DNA of 64,000 nt from positions 1,736,001-1,800,000 of the forward strand of contig NZ_JASTLB010000001.1 of assembly GCF_030499535.1 (NCBI RefSeq), in the 5' to 3' direction. This DNA comes from Streptomyces sp. TG1A-8. Lineage in GTDB: Bacteria; Actinomycetota; Actinomycetes; Streptomycetales; Streptomycetaceae. The notes beneath the pieces are model-generated. The model was given only the letters and a program-made list of their open reading frames with translations. It was not told the origin of the DNA and did no database searches. The translations under genes were made by a program, and so were the position numbers. Of the stretch, positions 15,911 to 41,929 are shown one piece after another (the stretch's first letter is position 1; each line of letters starts with the position of its first letter).

Positions 15911-15938
15911 GGTTGCCCCTCTCCGGGTGCCGGGGTGG

Positions 15939-19324: not shown

Positions 19325-19375
19325 CCAGATTCTCCTTGTAGGCGTGCCCCGCCGGTGGCGCGGGGCACTGGTGAT

Positions 19376-19855
19376 TCAGCGGGCCGTGTGCTCGTAATGG
19401 CGCCGAGTACGGTCCGCGGCTCTGGGCGGCGCGGTGGCCATGATGTCCGCCAGCGTCTGCGCGGCGAGTTCGCGGCGCCATGCCAGCTCGGCCCTGCGCA
19501 TGGCGGTGGCGATGCCGCAGGCCCGCTGGAACTCCCGGGCGGGTGCGCCCGCTCCTTCTCCCCGCTGGCGGATCTCGGTGCAGCGGAAGACGTCGTCGGG
19601 ACCTTCGATGGCGGTGACGACGTCCATGAGAGTGATCCGCTCGGGGGGGCGGGCCATCCGGAAACCGCCCCTGGCCCCCGGCGTCGAACTGAGGATGCCG
19701 GCCCTGACCAACGCCTGCAGCTGCTTGTTCAGATAGGCGGGCGGCAGGTCGAACCAGACCGCCAGTTTCGCCGCCGGCACCGGTTCCTCGTCCCCGACCC
19801 ACGCCAGTGTCAGGCAGCAGTGCAGCCCCCACTCGACTCCCTCGCTCATCCGCAT
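19376..19855 (-). CDS. Rrf2 family transcriptional regulator
   Basis: 159 residues from the ATG at 19855 (MRMSEGVEWGLHCC). The Rrf2 winged helix is clear: 'YLNKQLQALVRAGILSSTPG' followed by 'GGFRMARPPERITLMDVV'. Of the three cysteines that hold the Fe-S cluster in IscR and NsrR only two have likely counterparts ('FRCTEI' and 'RACGIA'), so cluster binding is doubtful. No ribosome site is well placed for 19855; a TAGTGT hexamer ends 7 bp upstream, which suits a leaderless transcript. It sits 50 bp before the MFS gene on the same strand and probably controls it. Confidence 0.88.
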   Translation of the reverse strand: MRMSEGVEWGLHCCLTLAWVGDEEPVPAAKLAVWFDLPPAYLNKQLQALVRAGILSSTPGARGGFRMARPPERITLMDVVTAIEGPDDVFRCTEIRQRGEGAGAPAREFQRACGIATAMRRAELAWRRELAAQTLADIMATAPPRAADRTRRHYEHTAR

Positions 19856-19954: not shown

Positions 19955-20941
19955 TCAGGCGTCCAGGTGCGGGAGGAGGAGCACTCGCCTGCCGTGCAGC
20001 TCGCCCCGCTCCATCCGGCGGTGGACCTCGGCGGCGGCGCTCAGCGGGAGCGCCTCGGTGCACCGGGGGCGGAGGCGGCCCGCGGCGAGGAGCCGGTTGA
20101 TGGCGACGGCCGCCTCGGCGAGCTCGGCACCGGTCGCGTGGGAGATGACGAAGCCGACGATGGAGCAGTCCTTCATGTAGAGCGGCCCCACCGGGAGGAC
20201 CGGTCGCGAGCGGGCGCCGGCCAGCAGCACGATCCGGCCGCGGGCGGCGAGCACGTCGACGGCGGTGGTCAGGTCGTTGGTGCCGGAGGTGTCGAGGTAG
20301 ACGTCGACGCCATGGGGGCTGACCTCGTCGATCCGCTTGGCGAGGTCGGGATCGCGGTAGTCCAGGACCTCCGCCGCGCCCAGGTCGCGGCAGTGCGTGG
20401 CGTCACGCGCGGAGGCCGTGGCTATCACCCGGGCGCCGGCCTCGACGGCCAGCACGATCAGCGCGCTGCCGACGTTCCCCGCCGCGCCGGCCACCAGGAC
20501 GGTCTCACCGGCCCGGACCCGGCCGTGGGTGAACAGGCCCAGGTAGGCGGTGGCGGCCGGATGCACCGTGGCGACCGCGTCGGCCGGGTCCACGCCCTCG
20601 GGGAGGTGATAGAGGCGGTCGACCGGGACCACGGCCCGCTCGGCGGCGGCGCCCTGCCGGCCGCCGTGGCCGAGGCTGTTGGACCAGACCAGGTCGCCGA
20701 CGGCGAACCCGGGGGCCCCCGGCCCGGCCTGGACGACCGTGCCGACCAGGTCACGGCTGATCACGAGCGGGAACCCGGCCGGGGTCCGGAAGATGCCGGA
20801 GCGGACCAGGGTGTCCACCGGGTTGACGGTGGCGGCCAGGACGTCGACCAGGACGTCGGTCGGTCCCGCCGTGGGGGTGGGCATCTCACCGTAGTGGATG
20901 TTCTCCGGCGGTCCGAGGGTCTCGATGAAGGCTGCACGCAT
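19955..20941 (-). CDS. Zinc-independent MDR oxidoreductase (quinone reductase-like)
   Basis: 328-residue medium-chain dehydrogenase/reductase starting MRAAFIETLGPPENIHY. It has an N-terminal GroES-like fold and a C-terminal Rossmann fold with 'VLVAGAAGNVGSALIVLA'. No zinc-binding cysteine/histidine set is seen, so NADPH-dependent quinone or enone reduction is the family expectation. The start at 20941 is the first that fits the family; the upstream frame lacks homology. It is divergent from the transposase-like gene at 21215, with two similar palindromes between them. Confidence 0.88.
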   Translation of the reverse strand: MRAAFIETLGPPENIHYGEMPTPTAGPTDVLVDVLAATVNPVDTLVRSGIFRTPAGFPLVISRDLVGTVVQAGPGAPGFAVGDLVWSNSLGHGGRQGAAAERAVVPVDRLYHLPEGVDPADAVATVHPAATAYLGLFTHGRVRAGETVLVAGAAGNVGSALIVLAVEAGARVIATASARDATHCRDLGAAEVLDYRDPDLAKRIDEVSPHGVDVYLDTSGTNDLTTAVDVLAARGRIVLLAGARSRPVLPVGPLYMKDCSIVGFVISHATGAELAEAAVAINRLLAAGRLRPRCTEALPLSAAAEVHRRMERGELHGRRVLLLPHLDA

Positions 20942-21024
20942 GGTCACCGAGTCTTCCACCGCTCGGCGGGACGGGACCTCGGGCAGCGGAATATCCGTCA
21001 ACTGGGCCTGCCGCCCCGCACCCC

Positions 21025-21105
21025 GGTGGTCCGCCACCACCGTCGGCGGGGCGGACATTCGGACATGCGAAGCCGCTCCACCCCCCGACCGGTGGTCCGA
21101 CCACC
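21025..21105. promoter_or_regulatory. Two GGTGGT-CCG-ACCACC type palindromes in a divergent promoter
   Basis: GGTGGTCCGCCACCACC (21025-21041) and GGTGGTCCGACCACC (21091-21105) are related inverted repeats, 66 bp apart, between the divergent MDR gene (start 20941) and the transposase-like gene (start 21215). They are good candidates for one regulator's binding sites. Confidence 0.5.
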
Positions 21106-26343: not shown

Positions 26344-27516
26344 ATGGTCACCGCACTGACCGCTGTCCGGTCCAAACCGGCTCTGCAGCAGCCCGACTGG
26401 GCCGACGACGAACGCATGCTCGACGTCAGGAAGGAGTTGACCGAAAGACCGCCCCTGGTGAACGCCGTGGACGTGCGCCGATTGCGCTCCCTGCTCGCCG
26501 AGGTGGCGGCCGGCACGTCACAGGTGGTGCAGACGGGCGACTGCGCGGAGGACCCGGTGGAGTGCTCGGCCGGCTACGTCGCCCGCAAGAGCGGCCTGCT
26601 CGACGTCCTGGCGGGCATCGTGAAGATGGCCACCCACCAGCCGGTGGTCCGGGTCGGCCGGATGGCGGGCCAGTTCGCCAAGCCCCGCTCCTGCCCGACC
26701 GAGCGGGTCGGCGGCATCGAACTCCCCGTCTACCGCGGGCACATGGTCAACAGCCCGGAGCCCGACCCGAAGCTGCGGCGGCCCGACCCGCGGCGGCTGC
26801 TCTCCTGCTACGAGGCCGCGAGCAAGGCCATGACCCACCTGGGCTGGCTGAACCCGGGCGGACGCTCGACCATCTGCCCGCCGGTGTGGAGCAGCCACGA
26901 GGCGCTGCTGCTGGACTACGAACTGCCGATGATCCGTCAGGGCGACGACGGACGGCTGCTGCTCACCTCGACCCACTGGCCGTGGATCGGCGAACGGACC
27001 CGCGGGGTGGACGGCGCCCACGTCGCGATGCTCGCCGGTGTCGTCAACCCGGTGGCGTGCAAGGTGGGCCCCGGCACGCTGGTGGAGGAACTGCTGGCGC
27101 TGTGCGCGCTGCTCGACCCCGAGCGCGACCCGGGCCGGCTCACGCTCATCGCCCGGATGGGCGCCGGCTCGGTCGCCGACCGGTTGCCCCCTCTGGTCAG
27201 GGCCGTCAGGGCCGCCGGACATCCGGTCATCTGGCTCACCGACCCGATGCACGGCAACACCGTCACCACGCCCGGTGGCCTCAAGACGCGCTTCGTGGAC
27301 ACCGTCGTGCGTGAGGTCCAGGACTTCCAGTCGGCGGTTCGGTCCGCCGGCGGCGTGGCCGGCGGGCTGCACCTGGAGACCACCCCCGACGACGTCACCG
27401 AGTGCGTCCTCAACGGGTCCGAGGAGGGCAGCGTCGGCGACAAGTACACCAGTTTCTGCGATCCGCGGCTCAACCCCGGCCAGGCCGTGTCCGTGGTCTC
27501 CGCCTGGCGGGGCTGA
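26344..27516 (+). CDS. phzC: Class II (plant-type) DAHP synthase
   Basis: 390-residue enzyme condensing PEP and erythrose 4-phosphate to DAHP, the entry of the shikimate pathway. The start ATG has GGGAGA 5-6 bp upstream. Class II landmarks are the metal-ligand cysteine in '[11 protein letters not shown]', then '[14 protein letters not shown]', '[11 protein letters not shown]', '[10 protein letters not shown]' and 'LTDPMHGNT'. The shorter N-terminus matches the PhzC/cluster type, which usually escapes the feedback controls of housekeeping copies. It opens the gene set DAHP synthase - dehydrogenase - isochorismatase - ADIC synthase and raises chorismate supply for it. Confidence 0.95.
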
Positions 27517-27590
27517 CGGCGGGCCCGTGAACGAACCCAACCGACAACGGCCGGCCCGGCACCGGGCCGGCCGGCAGGGAGGTCCGAGAC

Positions 27591-28364
27591 ATGTTGAACA
27601 ATGTCGCCCTGGTCACCGGAGCGGCGGGGGGCATCGGCGCGGCCGTCGTCCGGGCCCTGGCCGAACGCGGCGCGGTCGTGGCCGCCGTCGACCGGAACGC
27701 CGATGCGCTGCGGGAGACCGTCGCCAAGCTGGTGGCGGAGGACGACCTGCGGGTCGAGGCATTCGCGGTGGACGTCACCGACAGCGCCGCGGTCGATGCG
27801 CTGGTCGACACGGTGGAGCGGGACCTGGGCCCGGTGGACCACCTGGTCAACGCCGCGGGCGTGCTGCGCCTGGGCGAGGTCAGGGACCTCACGGACGAGG
27901 ACTGGCGGGCCACCTTCGCGGTCAACGTGAACGGCGTGTTCCACGTGTCCCGCGCGGTGGTCGCACGGATGCTCCCGCGCCGCCGCGGCGCCCTCGTCAC
28001 CGTCGCCTCCAACGCCGCGAGCACGCCGCGCGCCGAGATGGCCGCGTACGCCGCCTCCAAGGCGGCCGCGACGATGTTCACCAAGAGCCTGGGACTGGAG
28101 GTCGCCAAGTACGGCATCCGCTGCAACCTGGTGGCACCGGGCTCGACCGACACCCCGATGCTCAGCTCGATGTGGCACGACGAGTCGGGCCCGAAGGGCA
28201 CCATCGAGGGCCGGCCGGAGGCGTACCGGGTGGGCATTCCGCTGGGCAAGCTGGCGCGGCCCTCGGACATCGCCGCCGCGGTGGTCTTCCTCCTCTCCGA
28301 CCAGGCCGGCCACATCACCCTGCACGACCTCACCGTCGACGGCGGTGCCGGACTCGGTGCCTGA
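27591..28364 (+). CDS. 2,3-Dihydro-2,3-dihydroxybenzoate dehydrogenase-like SDR
   Basis: 257-residue short-chain dehydrogenase of the EntA/DhbA group. It shows '[13 protein letters not shown]', '[10 protein letters not shown]', the catalytic 'YAASK', and the group-specific '[11 protein letters not shown]', '[14 protein letters not shown]' and '[14 protein letters not shown]'. EntA makes 2,3-dihydroxybenzoate; beside PhzD and PhzE homologues the better substrate is 2,3-dihydro-3-hydroxyanthranilate, giving 3-hydroxyanthranilate, as proposed for CalB3 of the calcimycin cluster. GGGAGG lies 8 bp before the ATG. A strong hairpin separates it from the next gene. Confidence 0.93.
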
Positions 28365-28375
28365 ACGACCCGCCC

Positions 28376-28408
28376 GGCGGCCCCCACCGGCTCCCGGTGG
28401 GGGCCGCC
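28376..28408 (+). terminator. Hairpin between dehydrogenase and isochorismatase genes
   Basis: Perfect 15-bp stem (28376-28390 and 28394-28408) with a 3-nt loop inside what looks like one operon. It may terminate part of the transcripts and so lower isochorismatase/ADIC synthase expression, or protect the upstream message. Confidence 0.6.
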
Positions 28409-28456
28409 CCCGGCCACCCGCGCCCCCGTACGTGTACAGAAGAGGAGACAGACGCC

Positions 28457-29085
28457 ATGGCAGGGTTACCGACCATCGAGCCCTATGCGATGCCGACAGC
28501 GGGCGACCTGCCCGGCAACACCGCGAAGTGGACCGTGGACCCGGACCGTGCGGTGCTGCTCGTCCACGACATGCAGCGCTACTTCCTGAAGCCCTTCCCC
28601 CCTCGCAGTCCCCGGGCGGTGAACTGGTGCACAACGCCGCCATGCTGCGCGAGCGGGCCGCGGCGCTGGGCGTACCGGTCGCCTACACGGCCCAGCCGGG
28701 TGGGATGACCACGGAGCAGCGCGGTCTGCTGATGGACTTCTGGGGCCCGGGCATGCGGGTGGACCCGGTCGACCGCGAGGTCGTCGAGCCGCTCGCACCG
28801 ACGCCGGAGGACTGGACGTTCACCAAGTGGCGCTACAGCGCCTTCTTCAACTCCGGCCTGCTGGACCGGATGCGTGCCGCCGGTCGCGACCAGCTCGTCA
28901 TCTGCGGCGTGTACGCGCACGTCGGGGTGCTGATGACCGCCGTCGAGGCGTTCACCCACGACATCCAGCCGTTCCTGGTCGCCGACGCGGTGGCCGACTT
29001 CTCCGCCGGCGACCACCGGCTCGCCCTGGAGTACGCCGCCAGGCGCTGCGCGATGGTGGTCACCGCCAAGGGGGTCCTCGCATGA
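28457..29085 (+). CDS. phzD: PhzD-type isochorismatase, frameshifted as sequenced
   Basis: The family hydrolyses the enolpyruvyl ether of ADIC to 2,3-dihydro-3-hydroxyanthranilate. The first 49 codons from the ATG at 28457 read '[18 protein letters not shown]' and '[14 protein letters not shown]' (catalytic Asp). The rest of the protein lies in another frame: '[19 protein letters not shown]', '[16 protein letters not shown]', 'TKWRYSAFF' (catalytic Lys) and '[12 protein letters not shown]'. The change falls at a run of six C (28597-28602); seven C would give one 209-residue protein of normal length. Codon 4 is TTA (28466-28468). The stop overlaps the next start (ATGA). Sequencing error, a real mutation, or slippage are all possible. 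Confidence 0.88.
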
Positions 29086-31004
29086 GACCGGACACCGTAC
29101 GGCCGGACATCCTGCAGCGGGTGCTCGCGCCGCAGCCGCCGCCCGCCTTCGCCCTGCTGTACCGGCCCGAGACGACCGGCCGGGGAACGCTGGAGGTACT
29201 GCTCGGCGAGGTCACGACACCGGCCACGCTGGATCGGATTCCGCTGACCGGGCCGGGTGGGCCGACCGGATCGACGCAGGACGGCGCCCGCCACGAGGTG
29301 CTGGCGGTCGTCCCCTACCGGCAGATCGCCGAGCGTGGCTTCGAGTCCACCGACGACGGCTCCCCGCTGATCGCCATCACCGTGACCGAGCAGGCCACCG
29401 TGGAACTCGCCGAGGCACTGGCGCGGATCCCGGACACGCCCATCGTGCTGGCCGGCGGTCACTTCGACATCGACGACGACGAGTACGCCGACATCGTCCG
29501 CCGGGTGATCGCCGACGAGATCGGCCGGGGCGAGGGGGCGAACTTCGTCATCAAGCGGTCCTTCGTCGCCGACATCACCGGCTACACGCCGGCCGCCGCG
29601 CTGACCTTCTTCCGCCGTCTGGTGGAGCGCGAGACGGGCGCCTACTGGACGTTCGTGGTGCACACCGGCGAGCGGACCTTCGTCGGCGCCACTCCGGAGC
29701 GGCACATCAGCCTCAGCGACGGCGTCGCGGTGATGAACCCGATCAGCGGCACCTACCGCTACCCGGCCTCCGGGCCGACACTGCCCGAGGTGATGGACTT
29801 CCTCGCCGACCGCAAGGAGACCGACGAGCTCTACATGGTGGTCGACGAAGAGCTCAAGATGATGGCCCGGATCTGCGACTCCGGTGGCCGGGTGGTCGGA
29901 CCGTACCTCAAGGAGATGGCCCGGCTGGCGCACACCGAGTACTTCATCGAGGGCCGCAGCGACCGCGACCCGCGCGAGATCCTGCGCGAGACGATGTTCG
30001 CGCCCACCGTCACCGGCAGTCCGCTGGAGAGCGCCGCCCGGGTCATCGGCCGGTACGAGCCCGCCGGCCGCGGCTACTACAGCGGCGTGGTCGCTCTGAT
30101 CGGGCGGGACGGGCGGGGTGCTCGCACCCTGGACTCCTCGATCCTGATCCGCACCGCGGACATCGACCGCTCCGGCCGGCTCTCCATCGGTGTCGGCGCC
30201 ACGCTGGTCCGTCACTCCGACCCGGCCTGCGAGGTCGCCGAGACCCGGGCCAAGGCGGCCGGCCTGCTGGCGGCACTGGAGGCCGACGGGCCGCGGAGCT
30301 TCGCCGACCACCCGAGCGTGCGTGCCGCCCTGGAGCGGCGCAACCGGTCCATCGCGGACTTCTGGCTCGCCGAGGGCGGGTCCGGGAGCCCGCACCCGGA
30401 GCAACTCGCCGGGCGCCGGGTGCTGGTGATCGACGCCGAGGACACCTTCACCTCGATGATCGAACACCAACTGCGGTCGCTCGGACTGGAGGTGGCGGTG
30501 CGCCGGTTCGACGAGCACTACTCCTTCGACGGGTACGACCTGGTGATCGCGGGTCCCGGACCGGGTGACCCGCGGGCGACCGACCACCCCAAGATCGCCC
30601 ATCTGCGGTCCGCGGTGCTGGAGCTGCTCGACCAACGGCGGCCGTTCCTCGCGGTCTGCCTGAGCCACCAGGTGCTGAGCAGTCTGCTCGGCTTCGAACT
30701 CGTCCGCCGCGACGTCCCGAACCAGGGCGTCCAGCGGGAGATCGACCTGTTCGGCTCCCGCGAGCGGGTCGGCTTCTACAACACCTTCGCCGCCCACAGC
30801 GCGCGGGAGGAGGCCGAGGCCGGGCGGGTGGGGGTGATCGAGGTGAGCCGCGACCCGGAGAGCGGTGAGGTGCACGCGCTGCGTGGCCCGCACTTCGCCT
30901 CGATGCAGTTCCACGCCGAGTCGGTGCTGACCCAGGACGGTCCCCGGATCGTCGCCGGTCTGATCACCGAGGTACTGCACGCGACCGCGGTGTCGGCCGG
31001 GTGA
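29082..31004 (+). CDS. phzE: 2-Amino-2-deoxyisochorismate (ADIC) synthase
   Basis: 640-residue fusion of an anthranilate-synthase-like chorismate domain (residues 1 to about 440) and a C-terminal glutamine amidotransferase (about 445-640). The PhzE group is shown by '[17 protein letters not shown]' in the chorismate domain and by the amidotransferase nucleophile motif '[16 protein letters not shown]', followed by '[17 protein letters not shown]'; TrpG has GHQ instead of SHQ. It makes ADIC from chorismate and glutamine without releasing pyruvate. The ATG overlaps the isochorismatase stop by 4 bp, so they are translationally coupled. It ends the plus-strand operon at a strong hairpin. Confidence 0.95.
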
Positions 31005-31225: not shown

Positions 31226-32806
31226 TCACCGCGCCGGCGGGTCGTCCTGCGGGCCCGCCAGCTGCCGGGACAGCTCCAGCCTCTTGACCTTGGTGGTGGC
31301 GGTGTGCGGCAGTTCGTCCAGCCGGCGCTGCACCGGTTCCGCCAGCGCCGGCAGACCGGCGACCGCCGCACGCCACCGGGCTGGGTCCAGCGGCCGGTCC
31401 TCGCGCAGGCACACCACGGGTATCGGGGCACCGCTCCCACCGGGGACGATGATGACCTCGAGCAGCTCCGGGAGCCTGGTGAAGAGCTTGTCCTCGATCT
31501 CCAGGGTGCTGCTGATGCCCGGGATCTCGTCGACCTCCCGATCCAGCAGGTGCAGGCAGCCCCACTTGGTGCGGTAGCCGAGGTCGCCCATCCGCCACCA
31601 GCCGTCCGGGGAGAACTGGTCGTCGAACCGCTCCTGCTCGCCGAAGTACGTGACGATCTGCCCGCCGCTGCGCACCTCGATGTGGCCCGGCGAGCTCTTG
31701 GTCGGCGGCAGTCCGTCCCGGCTCACCACCCGTACCTCGGTCATCCCGGGGAAGGTCCGGCCCACGCACCTGCCGTCGGCGCCGGCCCGGTGGCGCCGGG
31801 TGTAGGTACGGGCGGCGATGGCACCGGTCTCGCTCTGCCCGTACGTCTGCGCGAAGAACGGCATGGTCCGCCTCGACGCCCCCAGCAGGGTGTCCACGGT
31901 ACGGGGGTGGATGGCGTCGAAGGTGTTGCTGAAGCACCTGACCTTCGCGAGCGGCTCGGCCGGATGGTCCGCCAGCGTCTCCCAGTGCAGCAGCGTGTTG
32001 GGGTGGGACTCGATCACGCCCGGGGGAACCCGGGCGAACAGCTCGGCCGCACGAGCCGCGTCGTCGTCCCGCATCACGATGAGCGGATGGCCGCGCAGGG
32101 CGAACAGCGCCGTTCCACTGATCATCCGGGAGTGTGCGAACGAGACGTGGACGGCGACGGGTTCACGCCGTCCCACCGGGGCCAGGAGCACCGACTGCGG
32201 GCGGCAACGGGCCTGGATCGTGATCCCGGTCTGGACCGCGAGCTTCGGCAGGCCGGTGGTTCCCGACGTGTGGGTGATGAGCGCGGGCAGGTCCTGCGGC
32301 ATGGTCACCGGAGGCACGCGTTCGGCCCCCGCCAGGGACGCGAGGGACGTCCCGCCCGGGAAACCGCCGACCGCCACCAGCACCCGTTCGGTCGACCCGA
32401 ACACCTCGGGGGGGAGTTCCTGCTCCAGTTTCACCTGGTCGGTGACGAGCGTGGGGCGTCCCAGCCGCTGGAGCAGCCGGGTGACGGTGGCGCCGTCCAG
32501 CTTCGGCGAGAGCAGCACCGGCACCCCGCCGACGCGCGCGACGCTGTAGGCGAGCAGGGAGATGTCGAAGCTGTCCGACTTGTGGATGACCACGCGTTCG
32601 CCGGGCCGCACCTGTGCCGCCCAGAGCCGGGAGGCGAAGTCGTCGACCAGTTCGGCGATCTCCGTCAGGGTCACCCGGCGGCCCAGCTCGGGCGCGATGT
32701 CGAGATCGTGGTCCAGGTAGACGGGGCTCGCCGGGTGGCGTGCGGCCGCCCGGTCGAAGACCGTACCCAGCTGGATGCCCTTGTTGCCGAGCCGTTGCAA
32801 GAACAT
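31226..32806 (-). CDS. AMP-forming ligase (ANL superfamily), copy 1
   Basis: 526-residue adenylate-forming enzyme starting MFLQRLGNKGIQLG. ATP-binding motif 'THTSGTTGLPKLA' at about residues 178-190, adenine motif 'TYGQSETG' near 325, 'GWWRMGDLGYR' near 415, and the C-terminal lysine in 'TATTKVKRLEL'. The ribosome site is GGAAGAG. It is paralogous to the ligase at 38695 over its full length. Such enzymes activate acids as acyl-AMP for CoA or amide formation; CreM-type members instead use ATP and nitrite to diazotise aryl amines. Its place between the 3-hydroxyanthranilate genes and the nitrate module supports 3-hydroxyanthranilate or its product as substrate (inference). Confidence 0.9.
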   Translation of the reverse strand: MFLQRLGNKGIQLGTVFDRAAARHPASPVYLDHDLDIAPELGRRVTLTEIAELVDDFASRLWAAQVRPGERVVIHKSDSFDISLLAYSVARVGGVPVLLSPKLDGATVTRLLQRLGRPTLVTDQVKLEQELPPEVFGSTERVLVAVGGFPGGTSLASLAGAERVPPVTMPQDLPALITHTSGTTGLPKLAVQTGITIQARCRPQSVLLAPVGRREPVAVHVSFAHSRMISGTALFALRGHPLIVMRDDDAARAAELFARVPPGVIESHPNTLLHWETLADHPAEPLAKVRCFSNTFDAIHPRTVDTLLGASRRTMPFFAQTYGQSETGAIAARTYTRRHRAGADGRCVGRTFPGMTEVRVVSRDGLPPTKSSPGHIEVRSGGQIVTYFGEQERFDDQFSPDGWWRMGDLGYRTKWGCLHLLDREVDEIPGISSTLEIEDKLFTRLPELLEVIIVPGGSGAPIPVVCLREDRPLDPARWRAAVAGLPALAEPVQRRLDELPHTATTKVKRLELSRQLAGPQDDPPAR

Positions 32807-33295
32807 GCGTCTCTTCCCGTTCGGTAGGTCTCGGAACGCCGTGTGCCCGGTCCTCGGCCGCCCGGGGATCCCTCCGGCCGGTCGGATGCCGGGCGCATCG
32901 CGGCCCACGAGGTCGGGCCCGAGGAGCAGCGGTCGGCGACCTGGCGCTCGGGCGTCCGGCGCAAACCGGCGCACCACCGCATGCCGAGCAGTCGCACGGG
33001 TCACCCGACTCCGCGCGGCAGGTCCCCGGTCGGTGGTCGAAGGAATTTCGCCGTCCCATCCTCCGGCGGCGGTTCGATGACGCCAACGGAGAACACCGCA
33101 CTGTGTCAACTCGGTCCCGGCAACCCGTTCACCGGCCCCGTCCGGCCGCCGGACACCGTCGTGCCCGGTGCCGTCCAGGCCCCGGTGCGGTCACTTGACA
33201 AGGTCGGGCGGGACGTATTGCCCGGCCCCTCCCGCCCGCGGGAGGCTTGGCCGCGCCGAGGCCGCGTTCCCCGCGGCGTTCCCGACGCCTTTTCC

Positions 33296-33328
33296 TTCGA
33301 CGTTCCTTCGACGTTCCTTCGACGTTCC
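33296..33328. repeat. Three tandem copies of TTCGACGTTCC; gap 32807-33607
   Basis: The 11-bp unit occurs three times without interruption (33296-33306, 33307-33317, 33318-33328) in the 800-bp divergent region between ligase 1 and the nitrate transporter. An 11-bp period places each copy on the same face of the helix, as in SARP-type sites. No credible gene is seen elsewhere in the gap; it should hold two divergent promoters. Confidence 0.7.
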
Positions 33329-33607
33329 GTCCGGTGGCCCCGCGGCATGTCCCTTCGACTTCGCCCCGGACGCGGCGGGTGGTACCGAGGCCTTGAGGAG
33401 GCAGGCCCCGGCCGCGGGCAGCCCACCCCGTCCGCAAGGGGCGCGGCTCCTCCACGGGCCCTTCCGGACGGCCCGCCGCGGGCGCATGTCCGCCGGCGGG
33501 TGCCGAAGCACCCCGAACGCGGGCACGCCCGCAGCGCATCGCCCCGCGCTCCCAGCTCCGATCGGCGCCGTCTTCCACAGGGGCGCGCATCGCACAGGAG
33601 AGGACAC

Positions 33608-34972
33608 ATGACCGCCAGCACCTACCGTCCGGCCCGTCCGGCCGACGGCCGATGGATCGACGATTGGCGCCCTGACGACCCGCGGTTCTGGAACGGTCCG
33701 GGCCGCCGCATCGCCCGCCGGAACCTGATCTGGTCGATCCTCTCCGAGCACCTGGGTTTCACCGTCTGGACGCTGTGGAGCGTGGTCGCGGTCGAACTCG
33801 GCGACCACGCCTTCTCCACCGACCAGTTGTTCTGGCTGGTCGCCCTGCCCAATCTGGTCGGCGCCCTGCTGCGGGTGCCGTACACCTTCGCGCCGGCCCG
33901 GTTCGGCGGCCGCAACTGGACCGTGGCCAGCACCCTGCTGCTGATCATCCCGGCCGGCCTGCTCGGCATCACCGTCCACGACCCCGACACGCCGTACTGG
34001 GTGTTCCTGCTGGCCGCCGCGACCGCCGGGGTCGGCGGAGGCAACTTCGCCTCCAGCATGGCCAACATCACCCACTTCTACCCGAGGTCGAGACAGGGCG
34101 CCGCACTCGGCCTCAACGCGGCCGGCGGGAACATCGGCGTCAGCTCGGTCCAGGTGGTCGTGCCCTGGGTCATCACCGGCTTCGGCCTCGCCGCGGCCGG
34201 CCTGGTGTGGCTGCCGCTGATCCTGCTCGCGGCGTACGGGGCGTTCCGGGGCATGGACAACCTGCGCGGTGCCAGCTCCACCGCGGCGGACCAGCTGCGG
34301 GTCGCGGGCAGCACCGACACCTGGATCCTGTCGGTGCTCTACGTGGGCACCTTCGGTTCCTTCATCGGCTACGCGACCGCGCTGCCGCTGCTGATCGAGG
34401 TGGAGTTCCCGGAGGCGGGCCTCGCCAGGGTCGTCCTCCTCGGCGCCCTGATCGGATCCTGTGCCCGGCCGGTCGGCGGCCGGCTGGCCGACCGCTGGGG
34501 CGGCGCCCGGGTGACGCTGTGGAACTTCGCCGTGATGGCAGTGGGCGCGCTCGGTGTCGTGGTCTCGCTGCGGGTCCACGGCTACCCGCTCTTCCTCGGC
34601 TCGTTCCTGCTGCTGTTCGTCACCGCGGGCATCGGAAACGGGTCCATCTACCGAATGATCCCGGCTGTCTTCGCCGCCCGCTCGGCCCGGCTCCGGCAGC
34701 CACCGGACCCTGCCGGCGAACAGGCCGCGGCCGCCCGGGGCCGGCGCGACAGCGCCGCGGCACTGGGCATCACCTCGGCGATCGGCGCTCTTGGTGGTTT
34801 CGTGGTCAACCGGGCCTTCGGCACATCGGTCGCGGCCACCGGGACCACCGGGGGCGCGCTGCTCGTCTTCGCCGGCTTCTACCTGGGCTGCCTGGGTCTG
34901 ACCTGGCTCCGCTACCTGCGGCGCGGCGCAGCCACCCGCTCGGTGCCGGCCCGGGTGGACCTCCGTGTCTGA
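33608..34972 (+). CDS. narK: NarK-type nitrate/nitrite transporter
   Basis: 454-residue MFS protein of the nitrate/nitrite porter family with 12 predicted helices. The nitrate signature glycine-rich segments are visible: 'AGVGGGNFASSMANITHFYP' and, in the second half, 'AGIGNGSIYRMIPAVF'. The substrate-binding arginine is expected in 'LLRVPYTF'. The N-terminal 'WIDDWRPDDPRFW' is typical of actinobacterial NarK. The ribosome site is AGGAGAGG. The stop overlaps the start of the nitrate reductase gene by 8 bp, so uptake and reduction are co-expressed. Confidence 0.94.
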   Translation: MTASTYRPARPADGRWIDDWRPDDPRFWNGPGRRIARRNLIWSILSEHLGFTVWTLWSVVAVELGDHAFSTDQLFWLVALPNLVGALLRVPYTFAPARFGGRNWTVASTLLLIIPAGLLGITVHDPDTPYWVFLLAAATAGVGGGNFASSMANITHFYPRSRQGAALGLNAAGGNIGVSSVQVVVPWVITGFGLAAAGLVWLPLILLAAYGAFRGMDNLRGASSTAADQLRVAGSTDTWILSVLYVGTFGSFIGYATALPLLIEVEFPEAGLARVVLLGALIGSCARPVGGRLADRWGGARVTLWNFAVMAVGALGVVVSLRVHGYPLFLGSFLLLFVTAGIGNGSIYRMIPAVFAARSARLRQPPDPAGEQAAAARGRRDSAAALGITSAIGALGGFVVNRAFGTSVAATGTTGGALLVFAGFYLGCLGLTWLRYLRRGAATRSVPARVDLRV

Positions 34973-37127
34973 GCCCGGACCGGGGGCGTTCGGACCCGGG
35001 CCGGCACCGCAGACGCCGCCCACCGCGACGCACTGCCCGTACTGCGCGCTGCAGTGCGGCATGTGGCTGGAACCCGGACCGGACGGCAGGACCACCGTCC
35101 GGCCCCGGGCGCTGGCCATCCGCCCGGGCGGCCCACCGGGCCGGGCCGCACTCTGCCAGAAGGGCTGGACCTCGGTGGAACTGCTCGACTCGCCCGAACG
35201 GCTGCGCACCCCGCTCGTCCGCCGTGCCGGCGAGCTCCTCCCCGCCTCCTGGGACGCGGCCATGGACCTGATCGTCCGGCGGATCCGGGAGATCCAGCGG
35301 CAGGCCGGCCCGGACGCCGTCGCGGTCTTCGGCGGCGGCGGTCTGACCAACGAGAAGGCCTACGCCCTGGGCAAGTTCGCCCGGGTCGCGCTGGGCTCCG
35401 CCAACATCGACTACAACGGCCGGTTCTGCATGTCATCGGCCGCCGCCGCGGCCAACCGGGCCTTCGGCCTGGACCGGGGCATGCCCTTCCCCCTGGCCGA
35501 CGTCGCCGAGGCCGACGCAATCCTGCTGGTCGGCTCCAACCCGGCCGAGACCATGCCCCCCTTCACCCAGCACCTGGTGGCGGGCGGTGCGCTCGTCGTC
35601 GTCGACCCGCGCCGTACCCCCACCGCCGAACAGGCCGCCCTGCACCTCCAGCCGACCCCCGGCACCGACCTGGCCCTCGCGTGCGGACTGCTGCACATCG
35701 CCATCGCGCTCGGGCACCTCGACGAGAAGTACATCGCCCGCCGCACCACCGGCTTCGACGAGGTCCGCCGGGTGGTCGCCAACTACTGGCCGGAGCGGGT
35801 GGAGCGGATCACCGGCGTACCGCTGCCCGACCAGCGGCGGGCCGTCCAGATCCTGGCCGGCGCCGAGCGGGCGATGGTGCTCACCGCACGGGGCGCGGAG
35901 CAGCACAGCAAGGGCACCGACACCGTGTCGGCCTTCGTCAACCTGGCCCTGGCCCTCGGCCTGCCCGGCACCCCCGGCTCCGGCTACGCCTCCCTGACCG
36001 GTCAGGGCAACGGCCAGGGCGGCCGCGAGCACGGCCAGAAGGCCGACCAGCTGCCCGGCTACCGCCGGATCGACGACCCCGCGGCCCGGCGGCACATCGC
36101 CGAGGTCTGGGACGTGCCGGAGGCATCCCTGCCCGGCCCCGGGCGCAGCGCGTACGAGCTGCTGGACTCGCTGGGCACCCCGGCCGGACCGCGCGGGCTG
36201 CTGGTCTTCGGCAGCAACCCCGCCGTCTCCGCCCCCAACGCCCGGCACATCGGGGAGCGGCTGCGCTCGTTGGAGCTGCTGGTCGTCTCCGACCTGGTCC
36301 GCAGTGAGACCGCCGAACTCGCCGACGTCGTCCTGCCGACCACGCAGTGGGCCGAGGAGGACGGCACGATGACCAACCTGGAGGGCCGGGTGCTGCGCCG
36401 CCGCAGGATGCGGCCTCCGCCGCCCGGCGTCCGCACCGATCTGGAGGTGATCGCGGACCTGGCCGCCCGGCTGGGCCACGCCGCGCGCTTCCCCGCCGAG
36501 CCCGAAGCCGTCTTCGAGGAGCTGCGCCGGGCCAGCCGCGGCGGGATCGCGGACTACTCGGGCGTCAGCTACCGCCGGATCGAAGAGGAGGACGGCGTTT
36601 ACTGGCCGAGCCCGCAGCCCGCGGAGGGCACGGCCCCGGGCGGCGCCGGCAGTGCCGCCGGAGGCACACCGCGGATGTTCCTGGACGCCTTCGCCCACCC
36701 GGACGGCCGTGCCCGGTTCGTCCCGGTCGAGTACCGTCCCGCGGCGGAGGAGCCCGACGAGGAGTACCCGCTGTACCTGTCCACCGGCCGGATCATGCAG
36801 CACTACCAGAGCGGTGCCCAGACCCGTCGGGTGCCGACCCTCCTGGCGGGCGCGCCCAGGCCGTTCGTCGAGCTGCATCCCGACCTCGCGGCCGGCCTCG
36901 GCATCGAGGAGGGGCAGCCGGTACGGGTGGTGAGCCGGCGCGGGACCGCCCGGGCCGAGGCCCGGCTGAGCACGGCCATCCGGCGCGACACCGTCTTCAT
37001 GCCGTTCCACTGGAGCGGCCCCGGCCGGGCCAACACCCTGGTCGGCTCCGCCCTCGATCCACAGTCCCGGATGCCCGAGTTCAAGGTGTCCGCCGTCCGA
37101 TTGGAGCCGGTCACGTGCGACAAGTAG
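34965..37127 (+). CDS. nasA: Assimilatory-type nitrate reductase catalytic subunit
   Basis: 720-residue molybdopterin oxidoreductase (bis-MGD), cytosolic, reducing nitrate to nitrite. The N-terminal [4Fe-4S] site has Cys24, Cys27, Cys31 and Cys64 ('HCPYCALQCGMW' and 'ALCQKGW'). The Mo-cofactor regions include 'RFCMSSAAAAANRAFGLDRG' and 'TGQGNGQGGREHGQKADQLP', the latter diagnostic of Nas/Nap nitrate reductases. The C-terminal domain ends 'FMPFHWSGPGRANTLVGSAL'. It lacks the BFD-type [2Fe-2S] tail found in some NasA proteins; that domain is on the next gene. It starts at a GTG inside the narK stop region and overlaps the next gene by 13 bp. Confidence 0.95.
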   Translation: MSEPGPGAFGPGPAPQTPPTATHCPYCALQCGMWLEPGPDGRTTVRPRALAIRPGGPPGRAALCQKGWTSVELLDSPERLRTPLVRRAGELLPASWDAAMDLIVRRIREIQRQAGPDAVAVFGGGGLTNEKAYALGKFARVALGSANIDYNGRFCMSSAAAAANRAFGLDRGMPFPLADVAEADAILLVGSNPAETMPPFTQHLVAGGALVVVDPRRTPTAEQAALHLQPTPGTDLALACGLLHIAIALGHLDEKYIARRTTGFDEVRRVVANYWPERVERITGVPLPDQRRAVQILAGAERAMVLTARGAEQHSKGTDTVSAFVNLALALGLPGTPGSGYASLTGQGNGQGGREHGQKADQLPGYRRIDDPAARRHIAEVWDVPEASLPGPGRSAYELLDSLGTPAGPRGLLVFGSNPAVSAPNARHIGERLRSLELLVVSDLVRSETAELADVVLPTTQWAEEDGTMTNLEGRVLRRRRMRPPPPGVRTDLEVIADLAARLGHAARFPAEPEAVFEELRRASRGGIADYSGVSYRRIEEEDGVYWPSPQPAEGTAPGGAGSAAGGTPRMFLDAFAHPDGRARFVPVEYRPAAEEPDEEYPLYLSTGRIMQHYQSGAQTRRVPTLLAGAPRPFVELHPDLAAGLGIEEGQPVRVVSRRGTARAEARLSTAIRRDTVFMPFHWSGPGRANTLVGSALDPQSRMPEFKVSAVRLEPVTCDK

Positions 37128-38569
37128 TGATCGTGGGCAACGGCATGGCCGGCCACCGGGTCGCCGCCGAGCTGCTCAGCAGCAGCCCCGGGGTACGGAT
37201 CACGGTGTTCGGCGCGGAGCCGCACGCCCCCTACAACCGGGTGCTGCTGACCAACCTGCTGGCCGGAAAGGCCGACGAGCGGAGCATCCGGCTGCCGGAA
37301 CTGGCGCCCGGGGCCACCGTGCGGGCCGGTGTCGAGGTCACCGGCATCGACCGCGAGGCGTGCACGGTGACGGCCGCCGACTCCAGTGTCACCGGCTACG
37401 ACGCGCTGGTGCTGGCCACCGGCGGCTCGGCGCTGCTGCCACCGGTCGGGGGACTGCGCCGCGACGACGGACGGCTGCTGCCCGGGATCACCGGCCTGCG
37501 CACCCTCGACGACTGCCGGGAGGTGTTCCGGCTGGTCGCCGAGGTGGCCCGGCGCACCGGCGGGGGCCCGGCACGGGTGCTGGTCCTCGGCGGCGGCCTG
37601 CTCGGTCTGGAGGCCGCCCGCGGCCTGGTGCAGCGGGGCATCGAGGCGGAGATCCTGCAGGCCGACCCCTGGCTGATGAGCCGCCAGCTGGACGCCGCCG
37701 GCGGCCGGGCCCTGCTGCGCGGCCTGACCGGGCTGGGGGTGGCCGTCCGGGTCGGGGTACGGGTCGCCTCGGTGGTCGGGGACGGCCGGTTCGAGGGGGT
37801 GCGGTGCTCGGACGGGCAGCTGATCCCCGGGGACGTGCTGATCGTCGCCTGCGGTATGCGCCCGGCCACCACGCTGGCGGCGGACGCCGGACTGCCGGTC
37901 GAGCGGGGGATCGTGGTCGACGACCTGATGCGCACCGCCGATCCCCGGATCTTCGCGGTCGGGGACTGCGCCGAGCACCGCGGGACGCTCTACGGCCTGG
38001 TCCAGCCCGCCTGGGAGCAGGCCCGGGTGGCGGCCCGGACGATCGCCGCCCTCCCCGGCGTCAGGCCGTTCCGGGGCAGCAGGGTCGTGACCCGGCTCAA
38101 GACCACCGGCATCGACCTGGCCACCATGGGCGAGGTCGGCGCGGACGGCTCCGGGGAGGGCGAGGAGGTGCTCAGTTACTGCGACTCCGGCCGGAACGTC
38201 TACCAGAAGGTGGTCGTCCGGGACGGCCGGGTGGCGGGTGCGATCCTGGTCGGCGGCAGTGCCGCCCTCGGCACCATCACCCAGCTCTTCGACCGGCGGG
38301 CCGCCGTGCCGCAGGACCGGCGGCTGCTGCTCTTCCCGGAACTGGCCGGGACGGCCGGGACCGGCGCCTCGACCGGCCTGGCCGCCGACGCGCTGGTCTG
38401 CCAGTGCAACGGCGTGCCCAGGGAGGAGGTCCTCCGGCACGGCGCGGCCGGCTCACGGACGGTCGAGTCCATCGCCACCGCGACCCGGGCCACGACCGGC
38501 TGCGGCGGCTGCCGACCACTGATCGAGGAGCTTCTCGCGGGGCTCGCCCACCCCGGCGGCACCGGCTGA
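37115..38569 (+). CDS. nasB: Nitrate reductase electron-transfer subunit (FAD/BFD [2Fe-2S])
   Basis: 484-residue flavoprotein, the likely NAD(P)H-to-nitrate-reductase electron donor. FAD motif 'VIVGNGMAGHRVAAEL' at the N-terminus, NAD(P)H motif 'VLVLGGGLLGLEAARGL' in the middle, 'IFAVGDCAEH' for the second FAD contact, and a C-terminal BFD-like [2Fe-2S] domain with Cys429, Cys431, Cys463 and Cys466 ('CQCNGV' and 'CGGC'). It resembles the front half of NirB but has no siroheme/[4Fe-4S] nitrite reductase domain, so it does not reduce nitrite. The start GTG lies within the end of nasA. No NirBD genes are nearby. Confidence 0.92.
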   Translation: MRQVVIVGNGMAGHRVAAELLSSSPGVRITVFGAEPHAPYNRVLLTNLLAGKADERSIRLPELAPGATVRAGVEVTGIDREACTVTAADSSVTGYDALVLATGGSALLPPVGGLRRDDGRLLPGITGLRTLDDCREVFRLVAEVARRTGGGPARVLVLGGGLLGLEAARGLVQRGIEAEILQADPWLMSRQLDAAGGRALLRGLTGLGVAVRVGVRVASVVGDGRFEGVRCSDGQLIPGDVLIVACGMRPATTLAADAGLPVERGIVVDDLMRTADPRIFAVGDCAEHRGTLYGLVQPAWEQARVAARTIAALPGVRPFRGSRVVTRLKTTGIDLATMGEVGADGSGEGEEVLSYCDSGRNVYQKVVVRDGRVAGAILVGGSAALGTITQLFDRRAAVPQDRRLLLFPELAGTAGTGASTGLAADALVCQCNGVPREEVLRHGAAGSRTVESIATATRATTGCGGCRPLIEELLAGLAHPGGTG

Positions 38570-38622
38570 CCCGCCCGCCCACGGGTGGTTCCGGCAGGGG
38601 CCGGACGTGCTGGGCGGATGCC

Positions 38623-38668
38623 GACGGCGGTGGGGTCACCGGGATTCACCGGTGACCCCACCGCCGTC
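38623..38668. terminator. Bidirectional terminator between nasB and ligase 2
   Basis: Perfect 20-bp stem (38623-38642 and 38649-38668) with a 6-nt loop between converging genes. Confidence 0.9.
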
Positions 38669-38694
38669 AGCGCCCCTTGCGCCACCGCACCAGG

Positions 38695-40269
38695 TCACCC
38701 GCCCTGGCCCCGGGCAGCCAGCAACCTGACCAGCTCCAGCCGCTTGATCTTGGTCGTGGCGGTCTGCGGCAGGTCCCCCAGCCTCCACTGCACCGGGTCC
38801 GCCATCGGCGGCAGGGGGGCCGCCGCGCGCTTCCAGGCCGCCAGGTCCAGCGGCTTGTCGCCCTTGGTGCACACCACCGGCACGGCCCGGCCGTCCGCAC
38901 CGGGGACGATGATGACCTCGGCCAGTTCCTCCAGCGTGCCGAACAGCGTGTCCTCGGCGGCGAGCGTGCTGCCGAAGCCGTCGATCAGGTCGACCTCGCG
39001 GTCCAGCAGGTGCACGCAGCCCCACTTGGTGCGGTAGCCGACATCGCCCATCCGCCACCAGCCGTCCCGGGACACCTGGGCGTCATAGCGCTCCTGCTCG
39101 CCCAGGTAGGTGACGATCCGTCCGTCACTGCGGACCTCTATGTATCCCGGGTTCCGCTCGGACGGCGGGTTCCCGTCACGGCTGACGACGCGGACGTCGG
39201 TCATGCCGGGGAAGGGCATGCCGACACAGCGGCCGTCGTCCTCCAGCGTACGGCGCCTGGTGAAGGCGCGTACCACCGCCGGACCCACCTCGCTCTGCCC
39301 GTAGAGCTGGCCGAACAGCGGCGAGGTGCGCCGGCTGGCCCGCAGCAGCCGGTGCACGGTGCGCGGGTGGATCGCGTCGAAGGTGCTGCTGAAGAGCTTG
39401 ACGTTGGACATCGGGCCGCGTGGATCGTCCGCCAGCCCCTCCCACTCCATGAAGGAGTTGGGGTGCGCCTCCAGGATGCCCGGCTTCAACCGGGCGAACA
39501 GGTCGCCGATGTGCTCCGGGTCCGACTCGCGGAGCACCACCAGCGGGAACCCGCGGTGGAGCGCGATGGCGAGCGCGGTGATGAGCCGGGAGTGCACGAA
39601 GGAAACGTGTATCGCGACGGTCTCCCGGCCCCGGATCAACGGCCGCAGGACGGACGCCTGCGGGCGGTAACGCGACTGGAGGCTGAAGCCGGTGTGCACG
39701 GCCAGCTTCGGCAGGCCGGTCGTGCCCGAGGTATGGGTGATCAGGGTGGGCCGGGAGGCGGGCGCGATGACCGGGGCGACGCGCCCGGCCCCGGCCAGCG
39801 ACCCCAGTTCGACGGCGTTGCGGTGGCTGCCGGAGGTCAGTACCACCTGCTCGGCGAGGTCGAAGACGGCCGCCGGCAGCTCGTTCTCCACCTTGGCCAG
39901 GTCGGTGACGAGGAACGGTCTGACCGTCCGGCGCACCAGCTCGGCTACGGTCTCCCCGTCGAGCTTCGGCGAGAGCAGCACCGGGACGCCGCCGATACGG
40001 GCCACCGCGCAGGCCAGCAGGGTGATGTCGAAGCCGTCGGACTTGAAGACGACCACGCGCCGGCCGGGGCGGACCTTCGCGGCCCACAGCCGTGCGGCGA
40101 TGTCGTCCACCAGATCGGCCACTTCCGCGATGGTCGCCCGGCGGCCCAGCTGCGGGGCGATGTCCAGGTCGTGGTCCAGGATCAGTACGTTCGACCCGTG
40201 CCGGGCGGCGGCCCGCTCGAAGAGCCTCCCGAGTTGAATGCCCTGGTTTCCGATGCGTTGAAGAAGCAC
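38695..40269 (-). CDS. AMP-forming ligase (ANL superfamily), copy 2
   Basis: 524-residue paralogue of the ligase at 31226, colinear throughout: 'THTSGTTGLPKLA', 'LYGQSEVGPAVV', 'GWWRMGDVGYRTKWG' and the C-terminal 'TATTKIKRLEL' lysine. GTG start with GAGAGGG upstream. Two full-length copies on either side of the nitrate module suggest duplication followed by different roles, for example one activating an acid and the other handling an amine with nitrite. I cannot separate these from motifs alone. The next gene upstream on the same strand (SRPBCC protein, start 40906) probably shares its transcript. Confidence 0.9.
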   Translation of the reverse strand: MLLQRIGNQGIQLGRLFERAAARHGSNVLILDHDLDIAPQLGRRATIAEVADLVDDIAARLWAAKVRPGRRVVVFKSDGFDITLLACAVARIGGVPVLLSPKLDGETVAELVRRTVRPFLVTDLAKVENELPAAVFDLAEQVVLTSGSHRNAVELGSLAGAGRVAPVIAPASRPTLITHTSGTTGLPKLAVHTGFSLQSRYRPQASVLRPLIRGRETVAIHVSFVHSRLITALAIALHRGFPLVVLRESDPEHIGDLFARLKPGILEAHPNSFMEWEGLADDPRGPMSNVKLFSSTFDAIHPRTVHRLLRASRRTSPLFGQLYGQSEVGPAVVRAFTRRRTLEDDGRCVGMPFPGMTDVRVVSRDGNPPSERNPGYIEVRSDGRIVTYLGEQERYDAQVSRDGWWRMGDVGYRTKWGCVHLLDREVDLIDGFGSTLAAEDTLFGTLEELAEVIIVPGADGRAVPVVCTKGDKPLDLAAWKRAAAPLPPMADPVQWRLGDLPQTATTKIKRLELVRLLAARGQGG

Positions 40270-40363: not shown

Positions 40364-40906
40364 TCACTGCTTCTCGATGACGGCCTTGACACGTTCCAAA
40401 GTGGCCGCGAGATCACCGGCGACCTTGTCGCCCCACTCCTTGAAGAACTGCTGCTTCCGCGTCTCGTCCATTTCCGCGGTGATGCCGAGGATGCCTTCGG
40501 TGGCGGTGTCCATCCGGAAGTGATGGGTCAGCACGCTGCCCCCGGCCGCGGCCTCGATGTCGAAGGCCCAGACACTGCTCTGCTTCCGCCCTGCGGAGTC
40601 GTGCATCGCCCAGCGGAAGGTGCGCCCCGGCTCGGCGGCCACGACTTCGGCGTAGGTGGTCCATGTCCCGCGGACCACCGGCGCCCAGCTCACGACATCC
40701 GGGCTTCGCAGGTTCTCGCCCCGGAACACCGCGCCCACGGTGGCCGGCTCGCCGACGACCCAGGTGCCGCCCTGGCATTCCGGACTCCACTCCCCGCTGC
40801 GCGGGAGGCAGCTGATCAGCTCATAGATTTCCTGTGGCGTGGCCGAAATGCGGATCTCGGCGCTGGACCGGAAAAGCGGCTCGGTTGCCCTGCTGGTTTC
40901 ACCCAT
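40364..40906 (-). CDS. SRPBCC (polyketide cyclase/START-like) protein
   Basis: 180 residues. The helix-grip fold of the polyketide_cyc2 group is recognised by 'EIRISATPQEIYELISCLPR' at the start, the W/P-containing strand 'GEWSPECQGGTWV', and the C-terminal long helix 'DKVAGDLAATLERVKAVIEK'. Such proteins bind small hydrophobic molecules and may catalyse cyclisation or hydration, or only carry. It lies 94 bp upstream of ligase 2 on the same strand, so it probably acts on an aromatic intermediate of the island. Confidence 0.85.
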   Translation of the reverse strand: MGETSRATEPLFRSSAEIRISATPQEIYELISCLPRSGEWSPECQGGTWVVGEPATVGAVFRGENLRSPDVVSWAPVVRGTWTTYAEVVAAEPGRTFRWAMHDSAGRKQSSVWAFDIEAAAGGSVLTHHFRMDTATEGILGITAEMDETRKQQFFKEWGDKVAGDLAATLERVKAVIEKQ

Positions 40907-40963: not shown

Positions 40964-41437
40964 TCAAGTTGCGCGGTCCGGCTGCGCGCCGCCACCGCCG
41001 GCCGGTACGAGGTCCCGGACGAAGTGCAACGCCGCGATCGACATGCGTCGAGCGTGGTAGAAACGGTGCGCACCGTGGTTGGACACCCCGGAGTCGAGCT
41101 CGATCCGGACGCACCCGGCGTCCCGCGCCCGCGCCTCCAACTCGGCCATCAGTCGCGCACCGACGCCACCGGAACGCGCCTCGGGACGGGTCACCAGGTC
41201 GTCGACGAAGAGCAACCGGCCACGGCTGGTCGCCAGCACCCGGTGCGCGGCAACCGCGAGGCAGCGCCCGCCACCGTCATAGGCAGCGGTGAACACCAGT
41301 CCCTGCAGGTGCGCTTCGGCGGCGAACTCCCGGAACCCGAGCGCCGTCAGACCCGGCCGCAGACCACGGATCAGCGGGGCTACGTCGGACATCATGGCGG
41401 GCTGGTCCGGCGTCAGGTCGACCACGGTCAGTTCCAC
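40964..41437 (-). CDS. GNAT family N-acetyltransferase
   Basis: 157 residues starting VELTVVDLTPDQP. The acetyl-CoA motif A is 'VDDLVTRPEARSGGVGARLM' with the Q/RxxGxG/A core, followed by 'LDSGVSNHGAHRFYHARRM', typical of GNAT proteins that modify amines. The GTG at 41437 is chosen because a TAGAGT hexamer ends 7 bp upstream and there is no ribosome site, which fits a leaderless transcript; a GTG at 41446 is the alternative. It marks the right edge of the island. Substrate is unknown. Confidence 0.85.
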   Translation of the reverse strand: MELTVVDLTPDQPAMMSDVAPLIRGLRPGLTALGFREFAAEAHLQGLVFTAAYDGGGRCLAVAAHRVLATSRGRLLFVDDLVTRPEARSGGVGARLMAELEARARDAGCVRIELDSGVSNHGAHRFYHARRMSIAALHFVRDLVPAGGGGAQPDRAT

Positions 41438-41650
41438 ACCGATCACTCTACGGCCGACCGACTCGGAACTCCCGCCGGCCCGTTCGTCCCAGCCGCTCGG
41501 CCCGTTCGAAGCCGGGGGTTCCCGACCGGCGCTCGGAACCCGGTCGCACGGCAGGCCGACCGGGCCCCTGCGGCGCGTCACCACGCGGACCGGGGCGATC
41601 ACCGATGGACGCAGGCCAGCCGGCACCGCACCCGCACGCCCGGCATGGGA

Positions 41651-41830: not shown

Positions 41831-41929
<99 letters not shown>

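Follow-up and report, generated by a model that had tools for sequence, protein, structure and literature searches.

The DNA considered here is a stretch of 64,000 nucleotides from Streptomyces sp. TG1A-8 (positions 1,736,001 to 1,800,000 of contig NZ_JASTLB010000001.1; G000:C1:1736001-1800000 in our numbering), hereafter the window, from a genome of 7.66 Mb on 4 contigs. It holds three overlapping genes, narK, nasA and nasB, which lie between two ligase genes and which quite probably act as a cassette dedicated to supplying a penzonemycin-like gene cluster with nitrite for diazotisation. Genes in the window were called by frame composition and assigned to families by Pfam, the scan covering the window except for 1-5 kb and 47 kb onward. 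Compared loci, genomes and single proteins carry L, G and P numbers, respectively.

The cassette and its slot between the two ligases

33608..34972, plus strand: narK, nitrate/nitrite MFS transporter, 454 aa (Pfam MFS_1)
34965..37127, plus strand: nasA, assimilatory-type molybdenum nitrate reductase, 720 aa (Pfam, NCBIfam, motifs, tree)
37115..38569, plus strand: nasB, electron donor with flavin adenine dinucleotide (FAD) and a BFD-type [2Fe-2S] domain, 484 aa (Pfam Pyr_redox_2, Rubredoxin_C, Fer2_BFD)
31226..32806, minus strand: LIG1, paralogous ANL ligase in the position of Pzm17 (Pfam AMP-binding)
38695..40269, minus strand: LIG2, CreM/Pzm18-like ANL ligase, predicted to be a likely nitrite-dependent diazotase (Pfam AMP-binding; ligase tree)
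32840..38718: slot between LIG1 and LIG2, filled by narK-nasA-nasB in the window and by creE-creD in L113, L115 and L129 (blastn junctions)

A preliminary description made from the letters of this DNA alone had placed three overlapping genes at 33608-38569, and a re-reading of the coordinates agrees: narK and nasA overlap by 8 bp and nasA and nasB by 13 bp, all on the plus strand. NasA has the Pfam domains Molybdopterin and Molydop_binding, the full set of [4Fe-4S] cysteines that had been claimed for it (C24, C27, C31, C64) and the molybdenum-cysteine motif DYNGRFCMSSA, which the other NasA of the chromosome shares. Its top NCBIfam model is the assimilatory nitrate reductase NasC, with a score of 766.7 bits where 1100 is the cut-off, and that other NasA, scoring 778, also stays below it. 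The earlier reading of NasB as a FAD/[2Fe-2S] partner is borne out by its Pyr_redox_2 and Fer2_BFD domains, and no siroheme (NIR_SIR) domain was found in it by Pfam. The only NCBIfam models matched by the narK product are NarU and NarK, both with scores below the cut-off. The flanking ligases are indeed paralogues (63% identity) beside 3-hydroxyanthranilate genes (26344-31004), and LIG2 carries the motifs TSGTTGLPK and YGQSE. Upstream of narK, at 33296-33328, TTCGACGTTCC stands in three tandem copies, a possible regulator site. GlnR-like boxes gave 75 matches in the window vs 87.8 expected, with none of fewer than two mismatches in the region upstream of narK, and an Rfam scan gave no match.

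The slot is best seen in three sister clusters, from Streptomyces sp. MJM8645 (L113), S. rubellomurinus (L115) and Kitasatospora phosalacinea (L129). Their gene order is SRPBCC, LIG2, CreE, CreD, LIG1 and then the 3-hydroxyanthranilate genes on the opposite strand, with a GNAT gene preceding SRPBCC in L113 and L115. Blastn shows the window and these clusters to be collinear, with 75-84% DNA identity, on both flanks of the slot; the match breaks off at 38713-38719 and is taken up again at 32830-32839. When the non-coding ends of the slot were searched with the CreE and CreD of L113 for remnants of these genes, only chance-level matches appeared. In the tree of LIG2, which leaves out 23 loci showing neither nitrite source (see below), the window falls in a 100/100 clade with L112, L113, L115 and L129, every one of which bears creE/creD.

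In the genome that contains the window, a CreE query (from G173) has only matches of 37 and 40%, while the same query finds matches of 57-100% in 28 of 29 other genomes, the exception being G069 with 39%. This query matches no NCBIfam model and takes its name from the domain that Pfam assigns to a close relative and from its position beside CreD. The CreD query, which scores 776 bits against a cut-off of 650 on the NCBIfam nitrosuccinate lyase model, has one partial match in the genome, in which residues 104-367 and 367-463 lie in different frames and 1-103 are without a match. By these searches, a close creE and an intact creD are both lacking from the genome. The broken creD remnant (L074:7109-8178; about 2604108-2605177 of G000:C1) adjoins a gene like class II 3-deoxy-D-arabino-heptulosonate 7-phosphate (DAHP) synthase, and about 3 kb beyond it lies a possible recombinase gene, judged by eye.

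Nitrite sources in related loci and two separate nas lineages

The frequency of either nitrite source was counted in 79 ligase loci that had been fetched by the ligase alone and only then searched for markers, CreE or CreD, and NasA, being counted when more than half of the length was found. Only creE/creD are present in 29 loci, creE/creD together with nas in 20, only nas in seven, and neither in the fetched DNA of 23, nine of which have less than 8 kb fetched on at least one side. The preliminary description had proposed a search for further ANL-ligase clusters with narK-nasA-nasB and no nirBD; NasA occurs in 27 of the 79 loci, where about 0.4 would be expected by chance (60 NasA-like matches were seen in 30 genomes), and none of the 79 has the siroheme half of NirB. 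The two sources often stand side by side, as in the 20 loci that carry both creE/creD and nas. Many of these clusters, though not all, have a nitrite source within them or close by.

The nas-only loci (L118, L132, L151, L156, L159, L163, L181) come from Streptomyces, Micromonospora, Longimycelium, Kibdelosporangium and two metagenome-assembled genomes, of Kutzneria and of Pseudonocardiaceae. In L118, L151, L156 and L163 the narK match starts 15-113 bp past the LIG2 match, where creE starts in others. A search with CreE alone at 1e-30 gave no match in six of the seven genomes; in the Kutzneria genome it hit two fragments of CreE, located on contigs other than that of the locus. On the ligase tree the nas-only label needs at least five changes. 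In a second set of ligase loci, drawn in part from the same strains, L045 has nas and a shortened creD with no creE. Loci of the creE-creD-ligase type were also seen in Mycobacteroides, Mycobacterium and Segniliparus records (L172, L174, L178, L180, L183, L188).

No siroheme nitrite reductase had been noted in the window, and this stands: searches of the window for NIR_SIR (also as part of a whole-genome search), for the siroheme half of NirB and for NirD were without a match. The siroheme-half search covered 158 sequences (the window, L010, and L034-L190 except L103) and found it in eight, L010, L076, L077, L083, L084, L086, L087 and L093, all labelled native; it was found in no ligase locus among the 158. 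In the ligase operons, the gene after nasB encodes roughly 400 residues that correspond to the flavin half of NirB alone. In all seven nas-only loci at least 1.2 kb of sequence lies past this gene and the missing half is not there, and the same holds for 14 of the 15 flavin-half genes (two being the same gene) of the second set. In 19 other loci of the 79 the sequence ends too near the gene to judge, and L153 has no such gene.

The window's own genes have different kin. Its NarK has matches in 14 of 395 relatives, the source genome included, and the 13 others all belong to other families; within the family this type of NarK is rare (three of 394 genomes, and one of 392 in a genus sample, the source genome included in both). 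In the other families, all 11 uncut loci of the window type (L207-L211, L213-L216, L218, L219) are narK-nasA-nasB-nirB-nirD operons with the same gene order and with NasA about 62-72% and NarK 51-63% identical, but while these assimilatory operons of other actinobacterial families end with nirB and nirD, the one in the window ends after nasB, with neither. A NasA tree of 38 rows was built from eight of 20 native-labelled loci, eight ligase loci of the second set, six of the seven nas-only loci (L132 being left out), the 11 nirBD operons, the window, L195 and three proteins; the NasA of L034, which is in two pieces, was omitted from NasA trees. The ligase-operon type forms a 100/100 clade, and the window groups first with P0122-P0124 (100/99), then with L195 (100/99) and then with the nirBD operon L213 (99/97). 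The tree thus separates two nas lineages, and two separate recruitments would follow from their positions.

Because the cassette occupies the creE-creD slot, the nirBD genes of its kindred operons are missing and the genome has no close creE, the comparison favours the earlier proposal that nitrite is the wanted product.

Two further settings of nas genes were met. In G617 and G583, a cassette of the window type lies between homoserine dehydrogenase and aspartate kinase, in operons (L194:13270-18509 to L195:1-6749; L196:10207-17998 to L197:1-4244) of MetY-like, MetX-like, permease, homoserine dehydrogenase, narK-nasA-nasB, aspartate kinase and ProA-like genes, those of G617 being named by Pfam and those of G583 by similarity at their N-terminal ends. 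Apart from NasB, neither operon gave a NirB match. These operons possibly encode an uncharacterised nitrite-using homoserine pathway, in which nitrite could serve as a nucleophile or supply the N-oxide of an amino acid made from homoserine. In G108 (L080:5045-13798), genes like phzE and DAHP synthase are directly followed by nasA, nasB and a NirB-like gene of 515 residues, which may represent a third type of cluster fed by a nitrate reductase.

The penzonemycin-like gene set and the proposed pathway

The remaining cluster genes and other features of the window are as follows.

40364..40906, minus strand: SRPBCC protein, Pzm19-like (Pfam Polyketide_cyc2; adjoins the ligase in many loci)
40964..41446, minus strand: GNAT acetyltransferase, possible Pzm3 counterpart (Pfam; collinear in L113 and L115)
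26344..27516, plus strand: class II DAHP synthase (Pfam)
27591..28364, plus strand: short-chain dehydrogenase/reductase of the dihydro-hydroxyanthranilate dehydrogenase type (Pfam; role from its position in the pzm set)
28458..29085, plus strand: PhzD-like isochorismatase (Pfam; two frames by tblastn)
29082..31004, plus strand: PhzE-type chorismate-binding/glutamine amidotransferase protein (Pfam)
15939..17843, minus strand: acetolactate-synthase-like thiamine pyrophosphate enzyme, Pzm16-like (Pfam; 79% to L112)
18104..19243, minus strand: MFS transporter, Pzm15-like (Pfam; 85% to L112)
19376..19855, minus strand: Rrf2 regulator, Pzm14-like (Pfam; 79% to L112)
19955..21058, minus strand: zinc-type quinone oxidoreductase, Pzm13-like (Pfam; 65% to L112)
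21215-22450: DDE transposase-like gene, counterpart pzm10 in pzm (matches in L116, L128, L131, L132, L144)

The transposase-like gene is perhaps a conserved member of the cluster and not a passing transposon. Between it and the DAHP synthase gene lie genes for a PucR-type regulator and a methyltransferase (gene call and Pfam), and a tRNA-Ser gene is located at 41843. An open reading frame of 437 aa at 14009-15322 has good codon composition and no Pfam match; an ACT-domain gene (15668-15910) stands between it and the acetolactate-synthase-like gene, adjoining both.

The penzonemycin (pzm) cluster of Streptomyces sp. SCSIO 40020, whose product is a phenylhydrazone, is listed as having 3-hydroxyanthranilate genes (pzm6-9), a transposase (pzm10), CreD/CreE (pzm11-12), a quinone reductase, Rrf2, MFS, acetolactate synthase, an acyl-CoA ligase, a CreM homologue (48% to CreM) and an SRPBCC protein (PMC9323291). 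As far as Table 3 of that paper allows the comparison, the window has in common with it the 3-hydroxyanthranilate genes, the CreM-like ligase and the second ligase, SRPBCC, acetolactate synthase, MFS, Rrf2, quinone reductase and the transposase. The traits of a pzm-type cluster that are present in the window include the genes leading from chorismate to 3-hydroxyanthranilate (the isochorismatase frameshifted), a CreM-family ligase, acetolactate synthase, MFS, Rrf2 and SRPBCC. What differs is the nitrite source: where pzm has CreD/CreE (Pzm11/12), neither was found in the window, which has narK-nasA-nasB instead. The same order as in pzm, from SRPBCC to CreD, is found in L112 (S. halstedii NRRL ISP-5068), whose two ligases are each 85% identical to their counterparts in the window and whose DNA matches 15931-19337 of the window at 82.7%.

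We infer every reaction step and the final product of the cluster from sequence comparison. NarK would import nitrate, NasB would relay electrons from NAD(P)H via FAD and [2Fe-2S] to NasA, and NasA would reduce nitrate to nitrite, which no recognised cluster gene would reduce further. The CreM-type, ATP-dependent LIG2 would then use the nitrite to turn an aminated 3-hydroxyanthranilate into a diazo compound, whose coupling with a partner derived from acetolactate would yield a phenylhydrazone. By sequence, the cassette fills the slot that creE-creD, which lead from aspartate to nitrite, have in sister clusters, and it is related to the narK-nasA-nasB-nirB-nirD operons, without their nirBD. CreM and CmaA6 are reported to diazotise with nitrite and ATP (PMC11705231; PMC10777205), and in the cremeomycin cluster (CreM/CreD/CreE) and other clusters with ATP-dependent diazotases described there, nitrite feeds an ANL-type diazotase as it would in the window (PMC11705231). 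The difference is that nitrite comes from aspartate in cremeomycin-type clusters (PMC11705231) and would come from nitrate here.

That a nitrate reductase would be a source other than CreD/CreE, as first described, fits the finding of nas in the place of creE-creD; the idea as such has a precedent in alanosine. For alanosine clusters without the aspartate-nitrosuccinate genes, nitrate/nitrite reductases were proposed as the source of the distal nitrogen (Wang and Ryan 2023, cited in PMC11705231), and a preprint terms these reductases non-dedicated (PMC12154649). Alanosine differs from the window in its diazeniumdiolate chemistry, which involves nitric oxide (NO) according to the title of the work. 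Replacement of creE-creD by a nas set lacking nirBD in a cluster of the diazo type, loci with both sources and a truncated NirB were not found among the matches listed from the literature searched, which lacks most subscription papers.

Weighing the alternatives and significance

Several observations weigh against a dedicated cassette. The nas genes run on the strand opposite to both ligases. LIG2 scores only 67 bits, for a cut-off of 975, on the AvaA6 diazotase model, and its kinship with CreM depends on the table in the penzonemycin paper and not on a direct comparison with CreM or Pzm18. The absence of a neighbouring nirB is on its own weak evidence and is not rare in Streptomyces, only eight of 20 native-labelled nasA loci having the siroheme half in the fetched DNA and 12 being without it. 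At 1.646 Mb, some 90 kb away from the window, there is also a frame of 624 codons that bears two NIR_SIR domains. L050, L052 and L064 have nas and no creE/creD nearby, yet CreE-like genes stand elsewhere in these genomes (G009 58%, G239 57%, G215 70%). Nor do the 23 of 79 loci with neither source in the fetched DNA fit easily: among 14 of their genomes that were searched with CreE, four have no match, two a match of only 39% and eight one of 54-70% elsewhere, so that such clusters either can do without a nitrite source of their own or use the ligase for something else. In L112, the nearest to pzm in overall content, the ligases are adjacent and creE-creD stand behind the quinone reductase, outside the slot; in L121 the ligases are adjacent with the slot empty, creE/creD are not in the fetched DNA and the best CreE match of the genome is 39%. 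Because of these two loci a direct swap is not singled out, and the slot content may equally have come from a direct swap or from loss elsewhere and separate insertion. Finally, the isochorismatase gene is frameshifted in the assembly, within a C run near 28600, where relatives have intact copies.

The best surviving alternative, an unlikely one, is that narK-nasA-nasB encode a second, ordinary assimilatory nitrate reductase located here by chance, its nitrite going to the chromosomal NirBD for growth. The enzyme is of the assimilatory type, a nirB in the genome could take the nitrite, and nasA away from nirB is common in the genus. Against this, the preliminary description's thought that these genes might be the organism's sole assimilatory nitrate reductase is contradicted by another nasA, with 66% identity, found at 4.885 Mb of G000:C1, about 4 kb from a nirB with a siroheme domain and near a small gene taken as nirD from its position and length. 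Chance placement also agrees poorly with a nas set in the creE-creD slot, with nasA in 27 of 79 ligase loci and with a NirB reduced to its flavin half in the ligase operons. Slightly less probable still is a decaying cluster that makes nothing and carries the cassette as a passenger, for which the isochorismatase frameshift and the broken creD elsewhere in the genome could be cited. That frameshift falls in a C run and may have arisen as an error of sequencing; the reading frames of the other core genes are uninterrupted, the NasA motifs are intact, and a NasA (P0124) and a ligase (P0015), each 81% identical and seemingly from one assembly, suggest that the pairing recurs. Onward reduction of nitrite to NO as the reactant, as proposed for alanosine (PMC11705231, with the title of its reference 218), is very improbable, since CreM-type enzymes take nitrite directly (PMC11705231; PMC10777205) and no NO-forming reductase turned up among the Pfam-scanned genes of the window, which are not all of its genes, no genome-wide search having been made.

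A dedicated nitrite supply for diazotisation remains the preferred reading of narK-nasA-nasB. There is perhaps an even chance that it extends further, a nas operon minus its nitrite reductase being a portable nitrite cassette for specialised metabolism that was recruited on two or more occasions (in operons of CreM-like ligases from several families of actinobacteria, with NirB shortened to its flavin half, and in the window, with nirBD gone), that in its second lineage also serves the homoserine-type operon and that is interchangeable with the aspartate-nitrosuccinate genes. If the nitrite-supply reading is true, the inorganic nitrogen cycle would be tied directly to diazo and hydrazone biosynthesis, with environmental nitrate as the nitrogen source. 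Nas genes with an absent or truncated nirB beside ligases would then be a handle for genome mining, which would find N-N clusters missed by CreD/CreE searches, and the exchange of nitrite sources among close clusters would amount to a natural swap experiment.

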